From Crocinitomix sp. (GTDB taxonomy: Bacteria; Bacteroidota; Bacteroidia; Flavobacteriales_D; Crocinitomicaceae): a DNA stretch of 37,106 nucleotides. Below are positions 17,129-31,558 of the stretch, piece by piece. Under the pieces are notes generated by a model. It was given only the letters and a program-made list of their open reading frames with translations. It made no database searches and was not told the DNA's origin. The stretch lies in NCBI GenBank assembly GCA_013138735.1, contig WTCE01000104.1, positions 1-37,106 on the forward strand. Reading direction: 5' to 3'. Position 1 is the first letter of the stretch. Every line of letters starts with the position of its first letter. The position numbers were made by a program, and so were the translations under genes.

Positions 17129-17725
17129 ATGAAAGGTAAGGCCGAACTAACGACCGCGTTTATTATTAGTACCGTTGCGCCCATCTTTAACAAGAGCGGT
17201 TACAATGGCACAAGTATGTCGGACATTACCAAAGCAACCGGTTTAACGAAGGGCGCTATTTACGGAAATTTCAAGAATAAAGAAGATTTGGCTTTTGCCG
17301 CTTTCAAATTCAATGTTGATAAAGTGGTTGATCAAATTAAATCTGAATTGATTCAAATTGATTCTCCTGTAGCCCAATTGCGCGCCTTGCTAAATTACTA
17401 TCGCAGGTACAGATCTCATACTGTTGAAATAGGTGGATGTCCAATTTTGAATATTGGGGTAGATGCTAATCATCAAAATTCTGAGTTATTAGGGAAGGTC
17501 CAAGATGTCGTAAAAAAATTACAGTTCTACATTCGCAAAATGATTGAATTGGGGCAAGCTGCCAAAGAGATTAAAGCGGAGATTAATGCGGAGCAATATG
17601 CTAAACGGATTTTTGCCTTAATTGAAGGAGCAATTTTTATGACTGTTACTATGAATGACGACAGTTATGTGGACGATATGATGGATCATGCAGATAGGAT
17701 TGTTGACAAAGAATTGATTGAATAA
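17129..17725 (+). CDS. TetR/AcrR-family transcriptional regulator
   Basis: A 198-residue regulator with an N-terminal helix-turn-helix at about residues 28-50 (GTSMSDITKATGLTKGAIYGNF, classical TetR_N spacing) and an all-helical ligand-binding C-terminal domain containing GGCPILNIGVDANH. It probably represses its own gene and the downstream alpha/beta hydrolase, because matching 14-bp operators lie before each gene. The inducing ligand is unknown; lipid-like or ester compounds would suit the hydrolase, but that is speculation. Confidence 0.92.
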   Translation: MKGKAELTTAFIISTVAPIFNKSGYNGTSMSDITKATGLTKGAIYGNFKNKEDLAFAAFKFNVDKVVDQIKSELIQIDSPVAQLRALLNYYRRYRSHTVEIGGCPILNIGVDANHQNSELLGKVQDVVKKLQFYIRKMIELGQAAKEIKAEINAEQYAKRIFALIEGAIFMTVTMNDDSYVDDMMDHADRIVDKELIE

Positions 17726-17743
17726 AATTTTTTAACTAAAAAT

Positions 17744-17757
17744 ATACCGATTGGTAT
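17744..17757. promoter_or_regulatory. TetR operator O2 upstream of the hydrolase gene
   Basis: ATACCGATTGGTAT is the exact reverse complement of O1 (17094-17107), within a shared AAATATACC context, and lies 13 bases before the hydrolase ATG. A second operator at this point implies separate control of the hydrolase, not only read-through from the tetR promoter. No clear TAnnTTTG element is seen beside it. Confidence 0.75.
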
Positions 17758-17770
17758 AAAATATAAAATT

Positions 17771-18631
17771 ATGGCCGCACAACAAACAGTGTTAAAAATA
17801 TATTTTGGTGTTCTGTCGTTCGTAGCGCCTTCACGAGCGGCAAAAAAGAGCTTTGATCTTTTTCAAAAAGTGCGTAAAAAAGACATTCGGCCAAGGGAGG
17901 CATCTTTTTTTAAGAGCGCTCGGCATTTTCAAGTAGAAGCGATATTGGACCAAAACAAGGTTGATCAAATTGACTGTTATGAATTGGGAGATCCCAAGCA
18001 AGATCTTGTTGTATTAGTGCACGGTTGGGATTCGAATGCTGGCAGCATGTCACAAATTGCGAATAAATTGGTTGAAGAGGGGAAACGGGTAGTGCTTTTT
18101 AATTTACCTGGGCATGCTTTTTCGGTTCATCATTCAACAAATTTACTCGAGTGTAAAAATGCAGTTACGGCGGTTTTAAACCATTTAAAACCAATGTCAG
18201 GTTTTTCAGTTGTAAGTCATTCTTTTGGATCTGCGGTGGTAGCCTATGCGCTTTCTAAAAACAACTATGAATTGGATAAATTAATATTTCTAACCAATCC
18301 CAATCGCGTAGAGCACATTTTTAAAGACTTTAAAAACTTTATTGGCTTGAACAATCGTGCCTATTTAGCCTTGCTGAAATTGACGCAAGACAAATTAGGG
18401 GAACCCATTCATGCTGTTAGTGTAGCCGCCAATTTAACAGGGGTGAACTATCAAAAATTATTACTCATTCATGATAAAAACGATAAAGTTTTAGATTATT
18501 CTAACTCCTTAGAGGTAAAGGATGGGAACCCAAAGGCTGAGCTATTGACGTTTGAGAATATTGGGCACTATAAAATGCTTTGGAATAAGGAAGTAATTAA
18601 CAATTGCGCGATTTTCTTGAATAATGATTAG
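17771..18631 (+). CDS. Alpha/beta hydrolase
   Basis: A 286-residue serine hydrolase with no signal peptide. The oxyanion-side motif is VLVHGWDSNAGS (81-92). The nucleophile elbow is SHSFG (149-153, Ser151), where the first Gly of GxSxG is replaced by Ser. The acid is probably Asp238 in HDKNDKVLDY and the base is His266 in NIGHYKML. An esterase or lipase-like activity is probable; the substrate is unknown. The upstream TetR gene and operator suggest inducible expression. Repeats fill the downstream spacer. Confidence 0.87.
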   Translation: MAAQQTVLKIYFGVLSFVAPSRAAKKSFDLFQKVRKKDIRPREASFFKSARHFQVEAILDQNKVDQIDCYELGDPKQDLVVLVHGWDSNAGSMSQIANKLVEEGKRVVLFNLPGHAFSVHHSTNLLECKNAVTAVLNHLKPMSGFSVVSHSFGSAVVAYALSKNNYELDKLIFLTNPNRVEHIFKDFKNFIGLNNRAYLALLKLTQDKLGEPIHAVSVAANLTGVNYQKLLLIHDKNDKVLDYSNSLEVKDGNPKAELLTFENIGHYKMLWNKEVINNCAIFLNND

Positions 18632-18698: not shown

Positions 18699-18720
18699 TT
18701 AGATTCCAACTAAATCATTG

Positions 18721-18901
18721 AAACCGCGTCAAATCGCATTGATAATTGCGCATTGTTCATTGCCCATTTAAACCGCGTCAAACCGCATTAATAATTGCAC
18801 ACTTCGACGAGCTCAGCGCGGCGCATTGAACATTGCACATTGATACCCACGTCAAACCGCATTGATAATTGCCCATTGAAACCACGTCAAATCGCATTCA
18901 C
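18721..18901. repeat. Interrupted four-copy repeat AACCGCGTCAAATCGCATT
   Basis: Near-identical units start at about 18721, 18769, 18846 and 18879, each an ACCRCGTCAAAYCGCATT core, the first three followed by GATAATTGC or AATAATTGC. Between them lie CATTG-rich stretches (for example GCATTGAACATTGCACATTG). One insert, CTTCGACGAGCTCAGCGCG (from about 18802), resembles a widespread Bacteroidota intergenic element. There is no ORF. The spacer from 18632 to 19061 holds these repeats, copy B and the FIST upstream region, and nothing else that I can support. Confidence 0.8.
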
Positions 18902-19061: not shown

Positions 19062-20171
19062 ATGAAAATTGATAATTTTGTTTGGAACGACTTGAAGGAA
19101 AAGCCTTCAAAGACCAATAGGGTACTTGTTTTATGCGCTTTTGGTCGCTCAGGTGATCAGCAACCAACCCATGCGGCTTTAAAAGAGAAATATCCGAATG
19201 GTGAAATTATACTTTTTAGCACATCTGGACATTTTATTTCATCAGTAATTCATGATGATCAGCCGATTGTATCCGTTATAGAATTCAATAAATCAACATT
19301 TGAAGTTCGGAGCTATTCCAATGAGAATTATGGAGAATGCTTGGCTATGGGAACAGCAATTGGTGCTGATGTAGGTAAGACTGCAAAAGGAGTGTGCATT
19401 ATCTCAGATGGTGGAGTCGTAAACGGAACGCAGCTAATAGAAGGGATTAATTCTCAAATCATTGCTGATATTCCAATTTTTGGAGGAATGGCTGGCGACG
19501 GAACACGCTTTCAAAAAACCTTGGTTGGTGTTAATGCCGAACCAGAATCGGGCAGAGTAGGTGCAATTTCATTCTATGGAGATGCTCTTCAAATAAAATC
19601 AAATTGCGATTCCGGTTGGATAAGTTTAGGATTGGAATTCAAAATCACATCATCTGTCGCGAATAAATTAATTGAATTGAATGATAAAAACGCTTACGAC
19701 GTTTTGTACGATTTCCTTGCGCCAGAAAATCAAGAAGATTTTGCTAAAACAACCCTTTATTACCCTTTTAGTTTGGTAGAAGATGGAGTTGCAAATGTCA
19801 TTCGCACGCCAATTTTGGTCGATCATGTTAATAAAACATTGACCTATGCTGGTGACATGCCGGAAGGTGCGACTGTTAAATTGATGAAATCCGGAACCAT
19901 GCAATTATTAGATTCTACTGTGGATGTGGCAAAATATTGCGCTACGGAAGATCAAAAACCAAGTTTTATCTTTGCTACATCATGTGTCGGAAGAAGAGTG
20001 GTGTTGGATGATATGGCAAATGAAGAATATACGGAGTTGCAAAGCGTGTTTGGTAGTGAAAGCAGTTATTTTGGATTTTATTCATATGGCGAGTTTTCAC
20101 GATCGGGAATCGAGGAGAATTGTAAATTGCATAATCAAACCCTTGCCTTGGCTGTCTTAACAGAAAATTAA
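19062..20171 (+). CDS. FIST-domain signal transduction protein
   Basis: A 369-residue soluble protein made of FIST_N (about 18-220) and FIST_C (about 225-350) domains, a family proposed to sense small ligands, possibly amino acids, in the cytoplasm. Recognisable blocks are VLVLCAFGRSGDQQ, CIISDGGVVNGTQLIEGI, IFGGMAGDG (the conserved GG-AGD turn), FATSCVGRR and FGFYSYGE plus LHNQTLALAVL at the C-terminus. Its TAA is followed without a gap by the ATG of a soluble histidine kinase, so the pair is almost certainly co-translated and probably functions as sensor plus kinase. It leads the signalling cluster 19062-28242. Confidence 0.92.
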   Translation: MKIDNFVWNDLKEKPSKTNRVLVLCAFGRSGDQQPTHAALKEKYPNGEIILFSTSGHFISSVIHDDQPIVSVIEFNKSTFEVRSYSNENYGECLAMGTAIGADVGKTAKGVCIISDGGVVNGTQLIEGINSQIIADIPIFGGMAGDGTRFQKTLVGVNAEPESGRVGAISFYGDALQIKSNCDSGWISLGLEFKITSSVANKLIELNDKNAYDVLYDFLAPENQEDFAKTTLYYPFSLVEDGVANVIRTPILVDHVNKTLTYAGDMPEGATVKLMKSGTMQLLDSTVDVAKYCATEDQKPSFIFATSCVGRRVVLDDMANEEYTELQSVFGSESSYFGFYSYGEFSRSGIEENCKLHNQTLALAVLTEN

Positions 20172-21041
20172 ATGGAAGAGATTCACAGATTACTGCGCAG
20201 ACAAATTGAGCGTAGCGGCGTTAATTTGAAGGCGACCGAAGATGGCAGGGCTTTGTTAGATACACTGGATAAAACGTATAAACATTTTGAAGATGAGCGC
20301 AAAATTCTGGAGGAGAGCGCAAAACGAATGTTGGAGCGGATTAGCAGTTCGAATGAAAACTTACTGACTATTATCAGCACATTAGATGGGTTTAATTATC
20401 ATGTCTCCCATGATCTTAAAACAAGCATGATCCATACGGTTTCATTGAGTAAAATGATTCAAAAATATCAGGAAGCTGAGAATCCTGAAAAAGTCAAAGA
20501 AATCTTAAATAAATTAGTAAATAACTCAGAAAATGGGCTTAATTTGGTTGAGAAATTTTTACGGATTTCTCAATTCAATACACAATTGGTAGAGCAAGAT
20601 TTAACCACTATTAACATCCCGGATTTAATCAATTCAATTGCCAAAGAATTAGATTTTAAGTCACCGTATGAAATAAACTTTGCACAAACAGAGTTTACCG
20701 AGCTAAATGCCAAAGAAGTGGGTATACAAAGCCTTTTCCATAATTTATTGACAAATGCCATTAAATATCGCGAATCCAAGCGAACCCTTAAGATAGATAT
20801 TCGTCTTGTACAAAACGGACGCGACAAACTCATTTACTTTAAGGACAATGGAATTGGAATTGACCTCGAATCTAATCGTGATAAAATGTTTAAGCCATTT
20901 GTCAGAATTGAAAATGGATTAAACAAAGAAGGGACAGGTGTAGGTCTATTTCTTGTGAAAAAAATTGTGGGCGAGCATAATGGAACTATAAAGGTGAATA
21001 GTGTATTGGATGAGGGGACAGAATTTATTATAACTTTTTAA
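20172..21041 (+). CDS. Soluble sensor histidine kinase paired with FIST (HK1)
   Basis: 289 residues, no membrane segment. An N-terminal helical region (1-70, RLLRRQIERSG... and EDERKILEESAKRML) is probably a coiled coil that couples to the FIST protein. The dimerisation/phospho-acceptor helix carries FNYHVSHDLKTSM with phospho-acceptor His80. The catalytic domain has the N box (LFHNLLTNAIKY), DNGIGID and GTGVGLFLVKKI, all intact. The proline after HDLKT in ordinary HisKA boxes is absent. It starts immediately after the FIST stop and is followed by a lone receiver 34 bases on. Autophosphorylation and transfer to that receiver are inferred. Confidence 0.92.
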   Translation: MEEIHRLLRRQIERSGVNLKATEDGRALLDTLDKTYKHFEDERKILEESAKRMLERISSSNENLLTIISTLDGFNYHVSHDLKTSMIHTVSLSKMIQKYQEAENPEKVKEILNKLVNNSENGLNLVEKFLRISQFNTQLVEQDLTTINIPDLINSIAKELDFKSPYEINFAQTEFTELNAKEVGIQSLFHNLLTNAIKYRESKRTLKIDIRLVQNGRDKLIYFKDNGIGIDLESNRDKMFKPFVRIENGLNKEGTGVGLFLVKKIVGEHNGTIKVNSVLDEGTEFIITF

Positions 21042-21075
21042 AAGCACAAAATCAGAATAGAATAATCAAAAAACT

Positions 21076-21480
21076 ATGAGTGAAAAATTAGATTTTTTTA
21101 TAATTGATGATTCAGACGTAAATAACTATTACACGGAGGATTTATTAAACGAATTTGAGTTTACAAATTCGATAACCACATTTCTTAAAGCAACAGAAGG
21201 ATTAGCAGAATTAACAAAACGTATTCAAGAAAAAACAAAATTGCCTGACGTTGTCTTTTTAGATATTCGTATGCCAGAAATGGACGGATTCGAATTTATA
21301 GAAGAATTAGATGAGGTCTTAGATGATCAAGAATTGACGTCTAAAATTTTCATTTTAACTTCTAGCAAACACAGAAGAGATGTGGAATCTTTTGAAAAAC
21401 AAAAAATTGCTTGTGAATTTTTAAATAAACCACTTGAAAAGAATGAAATTATTTCAATGGTTGATAAGCATTTCAGCTGA
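21076..21480 (+). CDS. Stand-alone response-regulator receiver domain
   Basis: 134 residues consisting of a single CheY-like receiver with no output domain. The acidic pair is Asp11/Asp12 (IIDDSD), the phospho-acceptor is Asp63 (VVFLDIRMPEMDG), the switch Thr95/Ser96 is in ILTSS, and the conserved Lys118 is in NKPL. It is the only receiver among five histidine kinases, so it may be a common phosphoryl acceptor or a relay to an unlinked protein. Its stop overlaps a possible CTG start of the next kinase (CTGA, 21477-21480). Confidence 0.93.
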   Translation: MSEKLDFFIIDDSDVNNYYTEDLLNEFEFTNSITTFLKATEGLAELTKRIQEKTKLPDVVFLDIRMPEMDGFEFIEELDEVLDDQELTSKIFILTSSKHRRDVESFEKQKIACEFLNKPLEKNEIISMVDKHFS

Positions 21481-21509
21481 AACTTAAGAAAAACATATCA
21501 TTTCAGTAT

Positions 21510-22436
21510 TTGATAACTGGTGTTGCTTTTGGATTATTGTTTCCAATCATTGCTATTGTTGCGGATTGCTTTTTCTTTAATGATTTAGAAGTAACTTTTG
21601 CTGCTATAATCAAACGGATCAATAATAACCCCATTCATTTTATCATTTTAACCGCGCCTATTATTTTAGGAGGAGCCTTCTATTATATCGGTCGGTATGC
21701 GGTGAGGCAAAGAAAATCAAATTACGAATTGGTTCAGGCGAACATGGTGATGAAGGAAACAAATGAACTTTTGGATACCTTCAATTATCACGTCAGTCAT
21801 GATTTGAAAAATGTGCTCAACAATCAAATTGTATTGTCTCGTATGATGAGCAAATATGTTGCTAAAAATGATCATCAAAAATTGACCGAAATATCTGATA
21901 AATTAATTGACGTTAGTGAAAAAGGCCTTGCAACAGTGATGCAGTTTTTGGTCATGAGTAAGGAAGGGTATTTAATTAACGCAGAAACCAGCGAAATTAA
22001 TATCCAAGCCGAAATGGCCAAAATTTTGGTTGAAAATGGCTGCGAAGACCGTATTAAAGTAAAGTTTACTCGAACTGATTTTTATTCAATCGAATTACAA
22101 CGCAAAGTGTTTGAAACTATTTTTGTCAACCTTTTAACCAATACAATTAAATACAATAAAAGCAGTCCAAGTGTTGATATTCAGTTGATTAAACATGTGG
22201 ATGGAAAGCAAATCTTATTTAAAGACAACGGGATTGGAATTGATCTTGAAAAAAACAACGACAAAATTTTCACCCCTTTTCAACGATTTAGTGAATCTTC
22301 TGATGTAGAAGGGACAGGTGTTGGCTTATTTATAATTAAAAAGTTGATTCAAGCACATAGCGGAACGATATCGGTTAAGAGTAAGTTAGGCGAAGGAACC
22401 GAATTCACTATACTTTTCCCTAATACTCAAAATTAA
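21510..22436 (+). CDS. Two-TM sensor histidine kinase (HK2); start uncertain
   Basis: 308 residues from the TTG at 21510. Two transmembrane segments (about 2-23 and 43-62) flank a short periplasmic loop of about 20 residues. A coiled-coil linker leads to FNYHVSHDLKNVLNN with phospho-acceptor His97, then an intact HATPase_c (VNLLTNTIKYN, DNGIGID, GTGVGLFIIKKL). TTG 21510 would start inside what reads as the first helix. The frame remains open upstream for 15 codons, and translation from CTG 21477, inside the preceding stop as CTGA, would give M-KLKKNISFQYLITG, a natural positively charged membrane-protein start. I keep the conventional start and flag the alternative. The H-box has Asn instead of Thr in HDLKN. 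Confidence 0.85.
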   Translation: MITGVAFGLLFPIIAIVADCFFFNDLEVTFAAIIKRINNNPIHFIILTAPIILGGAFYYIGRYAVRQRKSNYELVQANMVMKETNELLDTFNYHVSHDLKNVLNNQIVLSRMMSKYVAKNDHQKLTEISDKLIDVSEKGLATVMQFLVMSKEGYLINAETSEINIQAEMAKILVENGCEDRIKVKFTRTDFYSIELQRKVFETIFVNLLTNTIKYNKSSPSVDIQLIKHVDGKQILFKDNGIGIDLEKNNDKIFTPFQRFSESSDVEGTGVGLFIIKKLIQAHSGTISVKSKLGEGTEFTILFPNTQN

Positions 22437-22479
22437 AGCCAAAAATGACCATATACATGAACCATATAATAGTACAATA

Positions 22480-24399
22480 ATGTATAAGGCACTTCTGACA
22501 TTCTTTACCGTTTTAATGGTGGCTACGGCTTATTCAGTCAAGGTCATTCAGGTGACCAATTCGAGTACAAAAATTATTGGTAAGGATGTCTTGTATTTTG
22601 AAGATGAAACAAATGCTGTTTCCTTAAATCAGGCCGTTCAGTTTGCAAATTCTGGCGAATTTGAAACATGCAGTATGGATGTTTTTGCAAGGCCATCTTC
22701 GCCTTCTTTACATTGGTTTTCATTTAGGGTTGAATCATTTATACAGGATGAATTATGGATCAATGTTGTTAACCAAGGGTTTAATAATATTAATTTTTAT
22801 CTCTTAGATGAGCAAATGAACCTGCTGGACTCTGTGAAAACAGGAGCTGAATTACCAGCCGAAACACGCAAACGAAAATCTAAAACATTTTGGTTTAATT
22901 TATTTCAAGATGAAGAAGTTGGAGTGCGCACGGTATTTTTACAAATAAAATTTTCGGGAATTTTAGAAGTGCCAATTCTATTGGGAGGCTATGAAGAATT
23001 GGTTGAGGTTGAAGATGAAAGTGAACTCTATGGACTTATGTTTATTGGAGCGTTATTAGTGATGCTCTTGTATAACGGTTTTTTGGCTTTTTTTACAAAG
23101 GATGTGGTTTATGTTTACTATACGGGATACATTCTTTTTATGCTGGTTATTACAACACACGTTAATAATTATCCAATAATGCCCACCTTTTTTGGGAGTT
23201 ACTTTACCTATGAATTTTTATTCGTTTGGATTTCGCCCGTATCCATTTTTATGGCCATGTTCATTATTCGATATCTCGAATTGGATAAATTTGCGAAAAA
23301 ATCGGCCAATGTTATTCGCGTTTTTGCGGGACTTTCATTTTTAGTAGGTTTATGTAACCTGTTTATTCCTGCGGCTTACCTGACTAATGTTTATCAAATA
23401 TGTACAGTTTTGTTACTGGTTATTTGCATGGTTATTGGTTATAAACAATGGATTAACGGACATAGAAGAGCAAAGTTTTATTCGATAGGCTGGACAATCA
23501 ACATCATATCTGTTTTAGTTTTTATTGCTGTTTCAAATGGATTATTACCCTACAATTCATTGTCTCGAAACAGTATGTATTTTGGTGTGGTTTGTGAACT
23601 AGTTATTTTTTCCATAGCCTTGGCAGAGCGCCTCAACGAATTGAAAACCGAACAAATGCTGTTGAATAAGAAGTTAGTAGCAGTCAATGAAAATTTGGTG
23701 GTCAGTAATGAATCACTCGATTCGTTTAATTATCATGTAAGCCATGATTTAAAAACGGTGCTAAATAATAGCAATGCTTTAACCCGGATGATCAAAAAGT
23801 ATAATCTTAAAAAAGATCATAAAAAGGTAGAAGAGATTTCAGAAAAATTAATCGCTGTGACTCAAAATGGGGTCGAAACAGTTCAAAGCTTTCTGTCTTT
23901 AAGTACAATTAATGCATTGAATCAAACCAACGAATTGGAAGAAATTAAATTGACAGATGAAATAAAAGCAATTGTTACATTGAACGGCTTAGATGAATTC
24001 ATTGACGTAGAAATAACCAAAAATGAACTGGGTACGATTTTGATGCACAAAAAGGCTTTTCAAAGTGTTTTTATGAATTTTTTCACCAATACAATTAAAT
24101 TCAATAAGAATAATCCGCAGGCAAAGATTGAGTTTTTAAAAATGGGTGAATTCATGCAAATTATATACGAAGATAACGGAATTGGAATTGACATGATAAA
24201 AAATATAAAGCTTGTTTTTGCTCCATTTGAGCGTATAAAAGGAGGCGTAGAAACCGAAGGAAGTGGCGTTGGTCTGTATTTAGTAAAAAGAATTATTGAA
24301 AATTATGGCGGTTCAATTGAAATTCAAAGTAAATTAAACGCCGGCGTAAAATTTATTATAACAATGCCCGAACTGCAAGATATAAGCAAGACAACTTAA
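22480..24399 (+). CDS. 7TMR-DISM sensor histidine kinase (HK3)
   Basis: 639 residues with an N-terminal signal peptide (1-19) and a periplasmic 7TMR-DISMED2 beta-sandwich (about 30-172, with WFSFRV, ELWINVVNQGF and FWFNLF strands), a fold thought to bind carbohydrate-like ligands. Seven transmembrane helices follow (about 184-382), then a coiled coil (383-412). The H-box is SFNYHVSHDLKTVLNN with His422, and the catalytic domain has NFFTNTIKFN, DNGIGID and GSGVGLYL. It is followed after one base by a close paralogue. There is no receiver or output domain, so phosphotransfer to the lone receiver or to unlinked regulators is inferred. Confidence 0.92.
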   Translation: MYKALLTFFTVLMVATAYSVKVIQVTNSSTKIIGKDVLYFEDETNAVSLNQAVQFANSGEFETCSMDVFARPSSPSLHWFSFRVESFIQDELWINVVNQGFNNINFYLLDEQMNLLDSVKTGAELPAETRKRKSKTFWFNLFQDEEVGVRTVFLQIKFSGILEVPILLGGYEELVEVEDESELYGLMFIGALLVMLLYNGFLAFFTKDVVYVYYTGYILFMLVITTHVNNYPIMPTFFGSYFTYEFLFVWISPVSIFMAMFIIRYLELDKFAKKSANVIRVFAGLSFLVGLCNLFIPAAYLTNVYQICTVLLLVICMVIGYKQWINGHRRAKFYSIGWTINIISVLVFIAVSNGLLPYNSLSRNSMYFGVVCELVIFSIALAERLNELKTEQMLLNKKLVAVNENLVVSNESLDSFNYHVSHDLKTVLNNSNALTRMIKKYNLKKDHKKVEEISEKLIAVTQNGVETVQSFLSLSTINALNQTNELEEIKLTDEIKAIVTLNGLDEFIDVEITKNELGTILMHKKAFQSVFMNFFTNTIKFNKNNPQAKIEFLKMGEFMQIIYEDNGIGIDMIKNIKLVFAPFERIKGGVETEGSGVGLYLVKRIIENYGGSIEIQSKLNAGVKFIITMPELQDISKTT

Positions 24400-24400
24400 C

Positions 24401-26308
24401 ATGAGACCAATTTTTAACATACTACTCTTATTTATTGGCCTAATGTCAGTTAATACAAACGCCGCACATTTATCATTATCAAAGGATTATGAAGGCTTTG
24501 TTGGCACATCATTGTCCTTCTATGTTGATCAACAAAACAAACTAAGTTTATCAAAATTTATTCAAAAAAAGAATGCGGATAAGTTGTCCAAATCAGAGGG
24601 AGAAATTTTTCTTCGCACCTCACCAATCCCATCTTATTGGTTTACGTTTTCGGCAAATTCAACACTATCAGAAGAGGTTTGGCTTAATCTTAAAAACAGC
24701 AATTTAAGTCAGGTTGATTTTTATAAATTGAACTATGCAGATGAAGTTTTAGAAGAGTATCACACCGGTAGTCTTGCAGATCGTTCAACCCGTGCTTATG
24801 ATTGTAATACATTTTGGTTTCCAATTATTGAGGCGAATGATACCGCCTCCTATCAATTTATATTCAAAATAAAAGCGGCATTGACCATTGAAGTTCCAGT
24901 AGAAATTGGAACCTTTCCTAAATTAATCGAATCCAAAGAGCAGTCCGACTTTTTAGCCTATTTCTTTATTGGAGCTATGTTAATTATGTTTGGCTATAAT
25001 ATTTTCCTTTTCATTTTCACGAAAGACAGAATTTATGGGGTTTATTCCTTTTATATTCTTTCCATAATTGTGGGCACTACCTTTTTAAATAATCATCCAA
25101 TATTGGAAAACTTTGTTGGAAAAGAGTTTACGTATAATTACACTGCATGCTGGTTATGGTCTGGCCTTATTGGTATTGGCGTCTTTGCAATGGAATATTT
25201 GCAGATTAAAAAAAGACTGCCAAAGATGTATAAATTACTTTGGATCGAAATGGGGATTATAATGCTCTACGCCATTCTAAATATTTTTATTCCTGTTGAT
25301 TTATTGTCCGTGACTTATCAAATTGTTGTGGTCTTATTTTACGGTACTTGCTTAGTTATAGCCTATTACTTCATGTGGTTTCTCAAGGATAGCCGTGCGA
25401 TATTATACGCTATTGGCTGGACCATTATGATGCTTGGTGGGATCATTTATTTATTAGTCATAAACGGTTTAATTACCTATACCGCAGTTTTTCGAAACAT
25501 GATGTATTTTGGTGTAATGAGCGAAGTGTTGATTTTCTCAATTGCACTTGCCCGTAGGTTGAATAGATTGAAGGCGGAACAAGAAAATCTAAACCAAGTT
25601 TTGGAGAAAACCAATGAAAGTTTATATAAAAATAATGAGGCATTAGATTCCTTCAATTATCATGTAAGTCATGATTTGAAAACGGTAATGAACAATAGTA
25701 ATGCTTTAGCCCAAATGGTTCAAAAGTATAATGACTTAGGGAGGACAGAAAAAGTGCAAGAAATCACTAAAAAGTTAATTCGTGTCACGGAAAATGGAGC
25801 AGAAACAGTTCAAAGTTTTTTGTCTTTGGGTTCGGTAGATAATATTTTAAAAAACGAAAGCGAAATTTCAATTGAGCCTTCGAAAGAATTGAGACTAATA
25901 ATTGAAAGAAACGATTTAGTAACGGCTATTGATATTACAATAGAAACAGATGAAATCGGGTCCTTATCCATGCATACCAAAGCATTTGAAAGCATCTTCC
26001 TGAATTTGCTAACCAATGCTATTAAATACAATACAGGAACTGCAAGGGCTAAAGTTCAGTTTAGAGTGAAGGGGAATGATTACGTATTTATTTTTTCCGA
26101 TAATGGAATCGGCATAGACACTGAAAAATATGGACGTCAAATTTTTGAGCCGTTTCAACGCGGAATGTTTATTGAAGGAGCAGAAGGAACCGGAGTGGGA
26201 CTATATTTAGTGAAAAGGATTGTGAATGCCTATAACGGTGAAATTAGTGTAGAAAGTGAGTTGGGTCATGGGGCAACATTTATAATTAAAATCCCAATGG
26301 ATCGGTGA
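24401..26308 (+). CDS. 7TMR-DISM sensor histidine kinase (HK4)
   Basis: 635 residues with the same architecture as its neighbours: signal peptide (1-22), DISMED2 periplasmic domain (about 28-175, WFTFSA, EVWLNLKNSNL, FWFPII), seven helices (about 184-384), coiled coil, H-box SFNYHVSHDLKTVMNN (His424) and HATPase_c with NLLTNAIKYN, DNGIGID and GTGVGLYLVKRI. The block from GWT through RNMMYFGVMSEVLIFSIA is nearly the same as in HK3, so the paralogues arose by tandem duplication. It begins one base after HK3, and its TGA overlaps the GTG start of HK5. Confidence 0.92.
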   Translation: MRPIFNILLLFIGLMSVNTNAAHLSLSKDYEGFVGTSLSFYVDQQNKLSLSKFIQKKNADKLSKSEGEIFLRTSPIPSYWFTFSANSTLSEEVWLNLKNSNLSQVDFYKLNYADEVLEEYHTGSLADRSTRAYDCNTFWFPIIEANDTASYQFIFKIKAALTIEVPVEIGTFPKLIESKEQSDFLAYFFIGAMLIMFGYNIFLFIFTKDRIYGVYSFYILSIIVGTTFLNNHPILENFVGKEFTYNYTACWLWSGLIGIGVFAMEYLQIKKRLPKMYKLLWIEMGIIMLYAILNIFIPVDLLSVTYQIVVVLFYGTCLVIAYYFMWFLKDSRAILYAIGWTIMMLGGIIYLLVINGLITYTAVFRNMMYFGVMSEVLIFSIALARRLNRLKAEQENLNQVLEKTNESLYKNNEALDSFNYHVSHDLKTVMNNSNALAQMVQKYNDLGRTEKVQEITKKLIRVTENGAETVQSFLSLGSVDNILKNESEISIEPSKELRLIIERNDLVTAIDITIETDEIGSLSMHTKAFESIFLNLLTNAIKYNTGTARAKVQFRVKGNDYVFIFSDNGIGIDTEKYGRQIFEPFQRGMFIEGAEGTGVGLYLVKRIVNAYNGEISVESELGHGATFIIKIPMDR

Positions 26309-28242
26309 TTAAATTTGCACATACATATAAACGGTTTCGTTTGCACTTATCATTACTTCTACTTCTTTTAAATGGTGCGGCTTTTGGACAGATAGTTGAA
26401 TTAGGCGATTCAAATCAGGCGATATTGATAGGCGATCAAGTTGCTTATTTCATTGATGATTCAAGCGCTTTAACCTATGATCAGGTTTTAAGTCGAACGG
26501 TTGAATTTACCAAGGGAAAAGGTAAAGTATTTGGAACCCCAGCAACAGAAGGTACCGTTTGGGTTTATTTTGAATTTAATAATTCTTCTGATCAAGATAT
26601 TTGGATGGATGTTCACAATTCAAACTTGTTGAATTGTCATTTATTTAAAATTAATAGCGCTAATGAATTAGTAGAAACCTATTTCGCAAGCGCATTGCAG
26701 GATTATTCGCAACGTTCACATGATGTTCACACCTTTTGGTTCCCTTTAGCTGAGGCAGGCGACAAAGAGACCTATCGCTATTTAATAAGTGTTAAAACAA
26801 CCTTGGCAATTGAGCTACCCCTTTATGTAGGGCCAGAAAGATCTCTTTATAAAAATACAAATAGAGACAACTGGATGGCTATCGCCTTTATTGGTGCACT
26901 TTTGGGGCTGTCGATTTATAATCTCTTTTTCTTCTTTAGTTTAAAACGCAAAATTTACTTATTCTATTCACTCAATGTGATTAGTTTCTTATTCGTAATT
27001 CCTTTCTTTAATAATTTCCCAATTACGAACTATATTTTCGGACATAATTTCACCCATATACATACATCAACCTGGATTTGGATTCCCTTTCTGACAAGCG
27101 CATTATTTGCCTCCTCATATTTAGGATTAAGACGTTTAGCACCACGTTTAAGGTATTTGTTGATGGGGTTCGTTAAATTTTTCATTCTCTTAATACCATT
27201 TACAATCTACTATCCAAGTGCTGGTCTTGCTAAATTATATGTTTTGAGCACATTAGTGTTTTACCTCGTTTGTTTACTTATCGGCTATTATATGCTGGTG
27301 GTGAAAAAACAAAAAAGGGCCTTATTATTTTGCCTTGGTTGGACCGCCATGTTCATTACTATAATTATTGTCGTGTTGGTGAGGAACGGAATTATGCCGT
27401 ACAGCCTATTTTTGCGAAATGCAACTTATGCTGGGATTTTTGTTGAAATGTTTGTCTTTGCAATTGCTATTGGGCAATACATGAACGCCTTACGTGCAGA
27501 CCAAATTAAGTTGAATAAAGCATTAAAAGAATCAAATGAGGAATTGATTGAACTTAATGAGTCGCTTGACTCTTTTAATTATCATGTCAGTCATGATTTG
27601 AAAACAGTTCTCAACAATACGAAGGCCTTAAGTAAAATGGCTGAAAAATATAATGAAAAGGGTGATCAAGGAAAATTAAGAGAGATTGTTCAAAAAATGC
27701 AGCAAGTCGCTGACAATGGCGTTGAAACTGTGCAAAGCTTTTTGTCATTAGGTAAAATCGACAACCTCTTTAATGTTGAAGGAACGGAGGAGTTGAATTT
27801 AGAAGCTGAAATTGCCACCATCATTAAGACGCATCAACTAACCAATAAAATTAAAGTAGCAATAACTCAGAACGAAATGAACGCGGTTAATATGCATGCT
27901 AAGGCATTCGAAAGTATCTTCCTGAACCTTTTTACAAACACTATTAAATATTCGATTGAAAACCCAACTGCTGAAATTCGTTTTTATCGTAATAAGAATA
28001 AATGTTGCATGGAATATCGGGATTTTGGTATTGGAATAGACATGGATAAATTTGGTGATGTTGTTTTTAATGCCTTCAATCGTGCAGGCAATGCAAGCCA
28101 TTCCGAAGGAACCGGAGTTGGACTTTATGTGCTTAATCGTATTGTCTCAAACTATCAAGGGACATGTGAAATGGAAAGTGAATTAGGTGAAGGCATTAAG
28201 TTGACCATGAGTTTCCCAGCTAAAAACGTCGCAATAGGTTAG
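26305..28242 (+). CDS. 7TMR-DISM sensor histidine kinase (HK5)
   Basis: 645 residues starting at GTG in a four-base GTGA overlap with HK4. It has a signal peptide (about 1-29, preceded by a basic region), DISMED2 (35-180, WVYFEF, DIWMDVHNSNL, FWFPLA), seven helices (about 190-390), and the H-box SFNYHVSHDLKTVLNN with His430. The HATPase_c has NLFTNTIKYS, DFGIGID (Phe replaces the usual Asn between D and G, but DxGxG is kept) and GTGVGLYVLNRI. It is the last kinase of the cluster; 136 bases separate it from the ABC transporter genes. Confidence 0.92.
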   Translation: MIKFAHTYKRFRLHLSLLLLLLNGAAFGQIVELGDSNQAILIGDQVAYFIDDSSALTYDQVLSRTVEFTKGKGKVFGTPATEGTVWVYFEFNNSSDQDIWMDVHNSNLLNCHLFKINSANELVETYFASALQDYSQRSHDVHTFWFPLAEAGDKETYRYLISVKTTLAIELPLYVGPERSLYKNTNRDNWMAIAFIGALLGLSIYNLFFFFSLKRKIYLFYSLNVISFLFVIPFFNNFPITNYIFGHNFTHIHTSTWIWIPFLTSALFASSYLGLRRLAPRLRYLLMGFVKFFILLIPFTIYYPSAGLAKLYVLSTLVFYLVCLLIGYYMLVVKKQKRALLFCLGWTAMFITIIIVVLVRNGIMPYSLFLRNATYAGIFVEMFVFAIAIGQYMNALRADQIKLNKALKESNEELIELNESLDSFNYHVSHDLKTVLNNTKALSKMAEKYNEKGDQGKLREIVQKMQQVADNGVETVQSFLSLGKIDNLFNVEGTEELNLEAEIATIIKTHQLTNKIKVAITQNEMNAVNMHAKAFESIFLNLFTNTIKYSIENPTAEIRFYRNKNKCCMEYRDFGIGIDMDKFGDVVFNAFNRAGNASHSEGTGVGLYVLNRIVSNYQGTCEMESELGEGIKLTMSFPAKNVAIG

Positions 28243-28378: not shown

Positions 28379-29314
28379 ATGGAAGTTTTAAGGGTAGAAA
28401 ATATCGTCAAGCAATACGCAGGTCATACTGCATTGGACGATATTTCGATTGGGACTAAAAAAGGGGAGATTTTTGGCTTATTAGGGCCAAATGGTGCTGG
28501 GAAAACTACTTTAATTCGGGTCATTAATCAAATTATTGGCCCCGATTCTGGTAAAGTTTTTTTGGACGGTAAACCAATCCATCCCGAAGATGTAGCAAAA
28601 ATCGGTTATTTGCCTGAAGAGCGGGGGCTCTACAAAAAAATGAAGGTTTACGACCAAGTGATGTATTTTGCGCGCTTGAAGGGAATGGGCAAAGTTGAAG
28701 CCAAAAGAAAAATTGATCATTGGTTTGAGAAATTTGAAATTACCTCTTGGTATAACCGAAAAGTCGAAGAGCTTTCCAAAGGAATGGCACAAAAAATCCA
28801 GTTTATAATTACCGTTCTACATGAACCGAAATTACTGATCTTGGATGAACCCTTTAGCGGATTTGATCCCATTAACGCACAATTAATTCGGAACGAAATA
28901 TTAGAATTGAAGAAAAACGGCGCATCTATTTTGCTGTCAACTCATAATATGAATAGCGTTGAAGAAATTTGTGATTCAATTGCGCTAATCGATCAATCTA
29001 AACTTATTTTAAATGGAAAATTAGCGGAGGTTAAAAAGGAATTTAAATCCAATACCTACGCCGTCCAGTTTAAAGGAATGACATTTGGCTTTGCCAACGC
29101 TTTATTTGCTGATTTTTCATTAGAAAAGTCGGAACAAATTGACGAAGATAGAGCTGTAGCTTATGTCAAATTACTCAAGGGGAATACACTCAATCATTTA
29201 TTGAAAACCGTTATGCCTGTGGTAGAAATTGAATCAATTAATGAAGTGATTCCATCAATGAAGGACGTGTTTATACAAGCCGTTCAAGGAAAGAAAGGAG
29301 GGAATGATGAGTAA
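28379..29314 (+). CDS. ABC transporter ATP-binding protein (NatA-like)
   Basis: A 311-residue cytoplasmic ATPase of an ABC-2 exporter. It shows Walker A GPNGAGKTT (36-44), a Q-loop region, signature LSKGM (132-136) and Walker B LLILDEPFSGFDP (152-164), the H-loop STHNM, and a C-terminal DUF4162-type extension (about 225-305). The 3' end overlaps the permease gene by 11 bases, where a strong AAAGGAGGG serves the downstream start. The pair resembles NatAB-type sodium or drug exporters; the substrate is not determinable. Confidence 0.92.
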   Translation: MEVLRVENIVKQYAGHTALDDISIGTKKGEIFGLLGPNGAGKTTLIRVINQIIGPDSGKVFLDGKPIHPEDVAKIGYLPEERGLYKKMKVYDQVMYFARLKGMGKVEAKRKIDHWFEKFEITSWYNRKVEELSKGMAQKIQFIITVLHEPKLLILDEPFSGFDPINAQLIRNEILELKKNGASILLSTHNMNSVEEICDSIALIDQSKLILNGKLAEVKKEFKSNTYAVQFKGMTFGFANALFADFSLEKSEQIDEDRAVAYVKLLKGNTLNHLLKTVMPVVEIESINEVIPSMKDVFIQAVQGKKGGNDE

Positions 29315-30644
29315 AGTAGGATTAATCATCAAACGTGAATATGGCGCCCGAGTTAAAAAACGGTCGTTTTTATTAATAACCGCCTTTGTGCCGCTCTTAG
29401 TAGCTGGTTTGGTTTTTTTAGCCATGTGGTTTAGCATTCAAGAAATTAAACAAATTAATGTATTGGTTGTTGATCCTGGAAACCTTTGTCATGGCAAGGT
29501 TTTTACTGGTGATGAAACCAATGCGCCAGCCATTTTTTCATTCGTCCAAGAGGATGTTTCTTTGGATGATTTTCAACATCATGAAACCTATAATGGCTTC
29601 GATTTAATGTTGGGCATTCAAGCGCAAGTAATTACTAATAAAGGTATAAAAGGAGTTTATCGAGAACCCATTACACCAAAAGCAGAGTATTATATCAAAG
29701 ATAAAATTGAGTTAAGGTTAGAAGAATATTTTGCACTTGATCGGGGGATTAGTATCAACGAATACCGGCAAATTAGGCAAGAGTTCAATTTCAATTTATC
29801 TAGTATTGATCCAGATGCACAAGACATGACTTATGCCCGTTGGGTTGGCATTGTGTTTTCTACATTGATATTCCTCTTTATTTACATCTACGCTTCGCAA
29901 GTTACGCATGGTGTGTTGGAAGAGAAAACGAGCAGAATTGTCGAGATTTTGGTCTCATCAGTCAAGCCATTTCAATTAATGATTGGAAAAATAATAGGAA
30001 TAGGTTTGGTTGGACTGACCCAGTTTGCTATTTGGATTGTTCTCATTGGTCTGTCCTTGTTTTTAATGCGCGAATTTATCTTTCAAGACATTTTAAATCC
30101 AGAAGTTTTAGCAGATGCAATGACAAATGCTGGAAATTTAACGGGAGATGCAATGAGTGGTCAATCCTCCCAAATAATGAAGGACAGTGCCTTGATTGAT
30201 GTCATTTATAATGGCGTACCATGGAGTACATTATTGTTTCTATTCCTAATTTATTTTATTGGCGGATATTTGTTATTCGGTGCAATATTTGCCATTGTTG
30301 GTGCAGCTGTAGACTCTGAAACAGATTCACATCAAGCCATGTTGCCGGTGCAATTAATAGTCATCTTTATTTATGTAATTGGTTGTTTTGTGGTCTTTAA
30401 TCCAAGTGGTGCAACAGCCATGTGGTTGTCACAAATTCCATTTACTTCACCGTTTATTATGCTGCAACGAATTTCAGCTGGTGCGGTGCATTATACAGAA
30501 TTATTGCTTTCATTGCTATTGTTAGCTGTCACTATTTTTGTAACTTTAAAAGGAGCAGCCAAAGTGTATAGAACAGGTATTTTAATGTATGGAAAGAAAG
30601 CTTCTTGGAAAGAAATTTTTAAGTGGTTGCGTTATTCCAAGTAG
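29304..30644 (+). CDS. ABC-2 type permease (NatB-like)
   Basis: A 446-residue inner-membrane protein. Helix 1 is at about residues 22-45, a large extracytoplasmic domain spans about 45-180, and five more helices lie between about 182 and 425. The motif GVLEEKTSRIVEILVSS after helix 2 is characteristic of ABC-2 permeases of the NatB/YhaP group. Two ATGs (29304 and 29307) are possible; the AAAGGAGGG upstream (about 29294-29302) is better spaced for 29307. It forms an exporter with the preceding ATPase. Confidence 0.9.
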   Translation: MMSKVGLIIKREYGARVKKRSFLLITAFVPLLVAGLVFLAMWFSIQEIKQINVLVVDPGNLCHGKVFTGDETNAPAIFSFVQEDVSLDDFQHHETYNGFDLMLGIQAQVITNKGIKGVYREPITPKAEYYIKDKIELRLEEYFALDRGISINEYRQIRQEFNFNLSSIDPDAQDMTYARWVGIVFSTLIFLFIYIYASQVTHGVLEEKTSRIVEILVSSVKPFQLMIGKIIGIGLVGLTQFAIWIVLIGLSLFLMREFIFQDILNPEVLADAMTNAGNLTGDAMSGQSSQIMKDSALIDVIYNGVPWSTLLFLFLIYFIGGYLLFGAIFAIVGAAVDSETDSHQAMLPVQLIVIFIYVIGCFVVFNPSGATAMWLSQIPFTSPFIMLQRISAGAVHYTELLLSLLLLAVTIFVTLKGAAKVYRTGILMYGKKASWKEIFKWLRYSK

Positions 30645-30661
30645 CTTGCAATAAATAAATT

Positions 30662-31558
30662 GTGAAGCGTGTAGCAATAATTGATTTAGGAACAAATACT
30701 TTTAATCTATTGGTGATTGATAAATTCGCCAATGGTTTTAAAGAAGTGTTTAGCACTAAAGTGGGTGTTGGACTAGGTTTGGGAGGGATCAATGAAAACA
30801 GAATTCATGCGGATGCTGAAAAGCGTGCCTTGGAAACGTTAAGTGCTTACAAGCAAAAAGCAATTGAATTAAATGTGGATGAAATTGTTGCTTTCGGAAC
30901 CTCTGCTATTCGCAATGCTTCCAATAAAACTGATTTTATGCAATTGGTGAAAAGCCAACTTGGAATTGATATTGAGGTGATTTCAGGTGAAAGAGAGGCG
31001 GAGTTGATTTATAAAGGAGTTACAATGGATCTGGAAACAAATGCACCGTTTATTGTAATGGACATTGGTGGCGGCAGTACCGAGTTTATTTATGGAACTT
31101 CAACTGAGTTATTGATCTCAGGTAGTTTCGAAATTGGTGCATCACGCATTTATCAGGCCTTTGATTTTGCTGATCCGTATACCGTTGAAAACTGTGAAGT
31201 CATTGAGCAGTATTTGGACAAAGGCGTTGGCAATTTTTTTGACAGCATACAAACGGATCAGTTGATTGGCGCTAGTGGATCATTTGAAACCTTTTATGAA
31301 TTGCTGAGTGATAAGACTTATCCGGCAAATGAATACGTTGCTTTACCAAAAGCAGAATTAATGGCACAGTTAGAACGGATTATCTATTCAACTAAGGCCG
31401 AGCGAGAAAAAGACGATCGAATTATTCCTATCCGAAAAAAAATGGCACCTATTGCTGCTGTTAAAATTCGCTGGATAATTCGTAAATTGAACATTCAAAA
31501 GATTACCATTTCTCCCTACTCCTTAAAAGAAGGAGTGATTGATGAGGTAAAAGTATAA
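30662..31558 (+). CDS. Ppx/GppA family phosphatase (exopolyphosphatase-like)
   Basis: A 298-residue actin-fold enzyme expected to act on polyphosphate or pppGpp. Phosphate loop 1 is AIIDLGTNTFNL (5-16), SGEREAELIYKG (108-119) holds the likely catalytic Glu, and phosphate loop 2 is IVMDIGGGSTEF (131-142). It lacks the C-terminal HD domain of long Ppx/GppA proteins, as is common in short forms. It starts at GTG (30662), which places MKRVAIIDLG at the correct N-terminus. Whether polyphosphate or pppGpp is the substrate cannot be decided from sequence. Confidence 0.9.
   Translation: MKRVAIIDLGTNTFNLLVIDKFANGFKEVFSTKVGVGLGLGGINENRIHADAEKRALETLSAYKQKAIELNVDEIVAFGTSAIRNASNKTDFMQLVKSQLGIDIEVISGEREAELIYKGVTMDLETNAPFIVMDIGGGSTEFIYGTSTELLISGSFEIGASRIYQAFDFADPYTVENCEVIEQYLDKGVGNFFDSIQTDQLIGASGSFETFYELLSDKTYPANEYVALPKAELMAQLERIIYSTKAEREKDDRIIPIRKKMAPIAAVKIRWIIRKLNIQKITISPYSLKEGVIDEVKV

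Follow-up and report, generated by a model that had tools for sequence, protein, structure and literature searches.

The stretch of DNA studied here (the window) is 37,106 nucleotides long and represents an entire contig (C64) of the genome of a Crocinitomix sp. (G000, 6.84 Mb in 188 contigs). On one strand it carries the gene of a FIST sensor protein, five histidine kinase genes (HK1-HK5) and one gene for a lone receiver (RR). This cluster is a real, recurring and lineage-limited multikinase array, and judging from sequence comparison all five kinases probably act on the one receiver. The gene order, the domain content, the common ancestry of the kinases, the recurrence of the locus and the pattern of its conservation were directly observed. 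In detail, the recurrence, the shared kinase ancestry, the constancy of the receiver beside a varying number of kinases, and the conservation of the DHp domain favor convergence on one receiver. The genes of the array are:

19062-20171, + strand: FIST sensor protein, 369 amino acids (aa); Pfam domains FIST (N-terminal, 102.9 bits) and FIST_C (82.7 bits); no hydrophobic segment
20172-21041, + strand: HK1, soluble kinase, 289 aa; HisKA and HATPase_c, no Pfam sensor domain; H-box HDLKT
21076-21480, + strand: lone receiver, 134 aa; Response_reg alone
21480-22436 (from CTG) or 21510-22436 (from TTG), + strand: HK2, kinase with two transmembrane segments; HATPase_c
22480-24399, + strand: HK3, 7TMR-DISM kinase, 639 aa; 7TMR-DISMED2, 7TMR-DISM_7TM and HATPase_c
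24401-26308, + strand: HK4, 7TMR-DISM kinase, 635 aa; 7TMR-DISMED2, 7TMR-DISM_7TM and HATPase_c
26305-28242, + strand: HK5, 7TMR-DISM kinase, 645 aa, GTG start; 7TMR-DISMED2, 7TMR-DISM_7TM and HATPase_c

The gene content on one strand (by coordinates and Pfam) and the intergenic gaps from FIST to HK5 (0, 34, 29, 43, 1, and -4 bases, the 29 counted from the TTG of HK2) are as given in the preliminary description of this DNA, which was made from the letters alone. The negative value refers to a GTGA overlap between HK4 and HK5. A hydropathy scan located two hydrophobic segments in HK2 and none in the FIST protein, HK1 and the receiver. HK3-5 lack a Response_reg domain (Pfam), that is, they are not hybrid kinases. 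The receiver had been called single, which is true of the cluster, but further lone receivers are encoded elsewhere in G000.

The sample of the genus consisted of nine genomes, G000 included, and kinases of the array clade (E<=1e-35) are found in five of them (G000, G001, G002, G003, and G005). Recurrence of the order in related genomes, which the preliminary description had proposed to look for, was found in sister genomes, an indication that the arrangement is not due to chance. In the window, the array lies in a syntenic slot with the following borders:

17129-18631, + strand: TetR regulator and alpha/beta hydrolase, left border
28379-31558, + strand: ABC transporter ATPase, permease and Ppx/GppA-like gene, right border, conserved neighbors

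The names in the right border are presumptive, as they follow the appearance of the sequences with no family search behind them. The slot, taken from the alpha/beta hydrolase to the ABC transporter gene, is readable in G000, G001 (on two contigs), G002, G003, G004, and G007. No such hydrolase turned up in G005, G006, and G008. In G003, the slot holds FIST-HK1-RR-HK2-HK3-HK4 and then the ABC gene, with HK5 absent, and over the aligned protein HK1-HK4 of G003 and of the window share 74-79% identity. The same six genes are located in G005 on a 6.8-kb contig (C8) without flanks, where FIST is truncated at one end; HK4 ends 17 bases before the contig end, and thus the presence of HK5 is not readable there. 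In G001, contig C43 ends with a PAS-SpoIIE protein, FIST and HK1, and contig C41 carries RR-HK2-DISM-DISM-ABC. The slot of G002 (99% complete, FIST-less) contains only a receiver and one DISM kinase, and this receiver, the only one beside that kinase, is of the window type. The slot of G007 has a PAS-SpoIIE protein alone and that of G004 two FG-GAP proteins with secretion tails. Where the array occurs in these genomes, there is always one receiver, and the kinases number 1, 4, at least 4, 5, or, on split contigs, 3+1; with all parts within 9 kb, this forms a natural series for the evolution of signal integration. A scan of named genomes showed, among the matches listed, a single close locus, L092 (the G005 contig); the match after it is 33% identical.

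In wider samples, a profile of the five kinases matched 12 of 100 genomes of the family at E<=1e-35, and a 14-row profile matched 22 of 399 genomes of the order and 11 of 395 of the phylum at E<=1e-38 (G000 counted), scoring in the order and phylum scans being limited to 7 first-look candidates per genome. Apart from members of the genus, only G033, G153, and G183 exceeded 230 bits, and the best match in the phylum sample apart from G000 was 140 bits. In G153, a member of another family, the order is SpoIIE (cut by the contig start)-FIST-HK1-RRa-RRb-HK2, in which the identity to the window receiver is 60% for RRb and 41% for RRa. G183, from the same genus as G153 (74% complete), has SpoIIE-FIST-HK1-RR, with a receiver 64% identical to that of the window; there, the window-type receiver is the sole receiver beside HK1. 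FIST-HK-RR trios occur in G013, G068, and G160.

A kinase tree, suggested in the preliminary description, was constructed from 46 transmitters, including 11 other kinases of G000 (3 of the 14 own-genome matches, L040-L042, were left out). All array kinases, together with a cut G153 kinase and a G033 kinase, form one clade (support 96/94), to which HK1 of G013 adjoins (99/95), and none of the 11 other own-genome kinases falls inside it. The HK1s compose one branch (94/82, under the star level of the tool), and HK2 with the DISM kinases another (100/99). The sensor region of G153_HK2 is HK2-like, but its transmitter is positioned on the DISM side (99/97). In the full-length tree, G001_DISMb is the counterpart of HK4 (97/98) and G001_DISMa pairs with G002_DISM (100/99). 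The sensor of G001_DISMb groups with HK4 (99/97) and its transmitter with HK5 (90/88). Transmitter swapping between tandem copies was considered for this case but is not supported: a grouping of the G001_DISMb transmitter with HK4 is not rejected (approximately unbiased test, p 0.147), and silent sites give no sign of recent conversion. HK5 may have been gained in the species of the window or lost in G003; it has no close ortholog for comparison, and its placement differs, with weak support, among the full-length, sensor and transmitter trees.

The receiver tree comprised 20 rows and took in 3 of the 13 other own-genome receiver matches. The window-type receivers group together (95/97), with a poorly resolved internal order. 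Residues D11, D12, D63, T95, and K118 are invariant in an alignment of five receivers.

The five kinases had been described as sharing one H-box and second-helix pattern, with TVQSFLSL in three of them. The sequence FNYHVSHDLK is indeed identical in HK1-HK5, TVQSFLSL is confined to HK3-5, and the second helices of HK1 and HK2 have diverged. The phospho-accepting His and the patterns of the ATP-binding N, G1, F, and G2 boxes are found in all five. The conservation of the DHp domain was compared in a single alignment with pairs drawn from 185 control kinases (from named loci and FIST loci). A control pair had an ATPase-domain identity within 3 points of that of the array pair, and was counted if it reached the DHp identity of the latter. 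The control kinases were partly found by DHp or ATPase-domain patterns and their pairs are not independent; the set is nevertheless strict, because some controls are surely orthologs. For HK3-HK4, the identity is 70% in DHp and 39% in the ATPase domain, a DHp level reached by 0 of 1148 control pairs. The respective values are 67% and 41% for HK3-HK5 (16 of 826 pairs), 64% and 39% for HK4-HK5 (10 of 1266), and 59% and 38% for HK2-HK3 (36 of 1468), and the DHp level of HK2-HK5 is reached by 68 of 1892. Other domain cuts move the DHp and ATPase figures slightly. The sensors of HK3-5, on the other hand, differ at 65-74% of positions. On this pattern, the DHp case for convergence is strong for HK3-5, fair for HK2 and weak for HK1.

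Recent gene conversion was considered as the cause of the DHp likeness of HK3-5 and rejected on the evidence of worn-out silent sites; the likeness is most likely due to selection on the protein. Codon agreement at identical residues is 49-55% in the DHp of the HK3-5 pairs and 43-46% in their sensors, and it is 47-71% in the DHp of G000-G003 orthologs. Duplicated kinase-receiver pairs are usually thought to be pressed toward separate specificities. HK3-5 seem to have followed the opposite course, with the docking domain held while the sensors diverged.

Several observations weigh against convergence. The pair HK2-HK4 is ordinary (DHp level reached by 235 of 1646 control pairs), and so is HK1 with HK2, HK3, HK4, and HK5 (333 of 643, 224 of 2802, 231 of 1723, and 110 of 5428, respectively). 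An older conversion, predating the G000-G003 split, could still account for the DHp likeness, because the silent sites are worn out between the orthologs of these two genomes too. The G153 locus keeps two receivers. RRa of G153 clusters with the G013 trio's receiver (92/86), which suggests that an RRa-type receiver may have been the original partner of HK1 and was lost in the genus of the window. In G033, a kinase of the clade, of HK2 type (L074 8884-9849), has no neighboring receiver, and at a different locus of this genome, a longer receiver-bearing open reading frame (ORF) joins the window type on a long branch. The preliminary suggestion that many kinases face one receiver is partly supported: recurrence, ancestry, the receiver constant in the genus and DHp conservation favor it, but the unexceptional DHp of HK1 and the two receivers of G153 do not.

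The best surviving alternative, although a doubtful one, is that the locus consists of two modules, in which FIST and HK1 work with the receiver, and HK2-HK5 signal to unlinked receivers. The receiver directly follows HK1, the DHp of HK1 departs from that of HK2-5 at positions H+5, H+7, and H+8, and the FIST-HK-RR trios of G013, G068, and G160 stand on their own. In G000, contig C168 (L396, 1267-2611) encodes three tandem lone receivers of 129, 129, and 133 aa on a 5.7-kb contig without a kinase, and these are possible alternative partners for orphan kinases. However, the one C168 receiver placed in the tree is far from that of the window. Furthermore, a window-type receiver lies beside a DISM kinase in G002, where both HK1 and FIST are missing, and the receiver adjoining HK2 in G153 is the one of window type.

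It is rather unlikely that only some of the kinases perform phosphotransfer and the others heterodimerize with them through the shared DHp, tuning the rest as RetS does with GacS. The DHp domain doubles as a dimer interface, and it is the most conserved part among HK3-5. Control of one kinase by another is described for the GacS network in the excerpted source (PMC5812489). On the contrary, the His and the ATP-binding motifs are kept in all five kinases, and thus none of them resembles a pure regulator. Finally, the array might be no more than a side effect of tandem duplication, with scant functional link and drifting extra kinases. This agrees with the species-dependent kinase number and the absence of HK5 in G003, but is highly improbable given the motifs present in all five and the 74-79% identity of HK1-HK4 to G003 despite worn-out silent sites.

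Under convergence of the five kinases on one receiver, an ancestral transmitter (DHp plus ATPase domain) would have been duplicated in tandem, and the copies would have acquired different inputs, namely the separate cytoplasmic FIST protein for HK1, a segment with two transmembrane helices for HK2 and, for HK3-5, three diverged periplasmic DISMED2/7TM sensors. The transmitter copies would have retained the DHp helices that dock the receiver, and all five kinases would phosphorylate the same lone receiver at Asp63. The phospho-accepting His is followed in the array kinases as HDLKT or HDLKN, and D/E-x-x-T/N is the known motif of kinases with an additional phosphatase activity toward their receiver. 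With this H-D-x-x-T/N motif, the array kinases probably remove the phosphate as well. The phosphorylation of the receiver would then represent a weighted sum of the inputs, and the phosphorylated receiver would act by protein contact. The likeliest downstream element may be a partner switch of the PP2C/SpoIIE or SiaC type whose genes lie elsewhere in the genome. More tentatively, the locus might be an expandable sensor cassette, with tandem kinases gained, lost and exchanged, and one docking and dimer surface kept frozen by selection for one receiver. New inputs could thereby be coupled to a single FIST-gated, output-free receiver driving a PP2C partner switch, and mixed dimers of different sensors would be possible.

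The idea of an output through a PP2C/SpoIIE or Sia partner switch derives by analogy from the surroundings of FIST genes and is offered with reserve. FIST occurs in 74 of the 399 order genomes, in 83 places. The co-occurrence profiles were home-made from few sequences, and the counts are lower bounds because contig ends truncate many FIST loci. At least 66 of the 83 loci have a same-strand kinase within 9 kb; a separate kinase is accompanied by a lone receiver in at least 34, and at least 7 have two or more separate kinases with exactly one lone receiver, a combination close to that for which a search had been proposed. Of these seven, the window has five such kinases, G003 four, each of four g58 loci (a genus) three plus a hybrid, and G140 two. 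The 1059 kb around FIST contain 11 SpoIIE ORFs, spread over 10 loci and all with the same orientation as FIST. In 2 of the loci SpoIIE is fused to FIST, in 4 (G001, G153, G183, and G130) it adjoins FIST, in 2 it comes straight after the receiver and in 2 it is looser. Pfam confirms SpoIIE in L297 and L331. FIST and SpoIIE form a single protein in G039 (L015 2593-4716, Pfam) and G050 (L017 6168-8258, home-made profile), and such a fusion, as its domains indicate, is a direct link from FIST to a phosphatase. The order FIST-HK-RR-[REC-PAS-SpoIIE] is found in G064 (L305 4157-9129, Pfam) and G089 (L319 38-5121, home-made profile). In G160 (L205 4085-10775, Pfam), SiaC, GAF-PAS-SpoIIE and DUF6272 are located upstream of the FIST-HK-RR trio across a 387-base gap.

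Other results speak against such an output. SpoIIE ORFs are no denser near FIST (11 in 1059 kb) than across 19 control loci, which have 3 in 273 kb, including one from the G007 slot. G000 has 31 SpoIIE matches (two within one gene) and 11 SiaC matches, and none of either lies on contig C64. The SpoIIE protein of G001 has no full-length match in G000; among the genus rows it has one in G007 only, and thus the gene is either gone or has an unlinked replacement in the species of the window. The partner-switch repertoire of G000 is, as these counts show, large.

The preliminary description knew of no system combining these parts, which is only partly so. In Pseudomonas aeruginosa, RetS and the FIST-linked NahK converge on HptB, according to excerpts of three papers (PMC5812489, PMC11784011, and PMC7695008), but searches of the open-licence literature yielded no inline array of paralogous kinases on a lone receiver. 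As far as these searches reach, the array is new in this form, whereas the wiring idea is known. No open-licence paper was found joining 'FIST domain' with '7TMR-DISM', or '7TMR-DISM' with 'histidine kinase' and 'Bacteroidetes'.

In NosP systems, the gene of a FIST protein lies beside that of a kinase without a recognized sensor domain; a NosR-NosP-NosK operon, in which NosR combines a receiver and an HD-GYP domain, is described, and a response regulator with a c-di-GMP-type output domain is 'often' present (excerpts of PMC12570481). NosP-NosK/NahK of P. aeruginosa and B. pseudomallei are similar to the window in the FIST protein and the adjoining kinase without sensor or transmembrane segments (HK1). 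They differ in that the window receiver is a Response_reg only, with no output domain, and that four more kinases follow.

RetS, PA1611, SagS, and ErcS' signal through HptB to HsbR, a receiver-PP2C-kinase protein, as excerpted from PMC5812489, and NahK, inhibited by the nitric oxide-sensing NosP, feeds HptB (excerpt of PMC11784011). RetS and LadS have 7TMR-DISMED2 sensors (PMC7695008, in part) and are termed hybrid kinases (PMC5812489, in part), and the excerpt of PMC8544897 holds no statement that SagS bears a 7TMR-DISM sensor. The resemblance to the window lies in several kinases, including the 7TMR-DISM RetS and the NosP-linked NahK, on one phospho-acceptor, and in an output protein with a PP2C domain, like the output proposed above. 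Unlike the window, this network has hybrid kinases, an Hpt acceptor and no tandem-paralog array. ErcS' (PA1976) and NahK are one and the same protein. The kinase genes of this network are at scattered loci. HK3-5 are of the RetS/LadS kind in having DISMED2, 7TM and kinase parts, but lack receiver domains.

In V. cholerae, VpsS, with the FIST protein VpsV as a possible sensor, and three other kinases act through LuxU (excerpt of PMC4398556). This network (CqsS, LuxPQ, VpsS-VpsV, and CqsR) is comparable in its FIST-linked cytoplasmic and membrane kinases on one acceptor, but the acceptor is an Hpt and the kinases are hybrids. Its genes are dispersed. The window locus looks like a compact merging of several signals onto one switch, in contrast to the scattered genes of these known analogues.

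The g58 loci (family f9; G226, G233, G274, and G309; L341, L343, L353, and L356) also have FIST, three H-box-related kinases and one lone receiver on one strand. They differ by another H-box type, an extra hybrid kinase and PAS domains (Pfam, G233 only), and are apparently an independent case. Their kinases share 45-73% in DHp and 33-53% in the ATPase domain, and a further receiver protein is present in two of the four loci as fetched; in L356 (G233), it is a receiver plus guanylate cyclase (Pfam).

As for the start of HK2, no in-frame ATG exists near it (window 21476-21515). The CTG at 21480 overlaps the receiver stop by 1 base, as previously described, and the alternative is the TTG at 21510. 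The CTGA junction and a similar frame ahead of the TTG are kept in G003 (L014 near 10248) and G005 (L092 near 1949). Since the junction is kept in three genomes, it is plausible that HK2 begins at this CTG or at another non-ATG codon.

The search of solved structures gave one poor match only for the FIST protein, and all 49 matches listed for HK3 cover the kinase part only. A Bacteroidota-type promoter pattern was not found upstream of FIST, a search of the locus against Rfam gave no result, and the 6 terminators predicted in the region (5.8 expected) include none between genes. The FIST ORF of G001 (L016 4507-5532) is ~28 residues shorter than that of the window (341 vs 369 aa). The nearest own-genome relative of the array kinases is a kinase of ~604 aa in a unit with a ~900-aa protein and a lone receiver, and this unit is conserved (L043 3599-8511, L076, L077, L078, and L206). 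In the gap upstream of FIST (window 18700-18898), a 41-nt direct repeat occurs in four imperfect copies.

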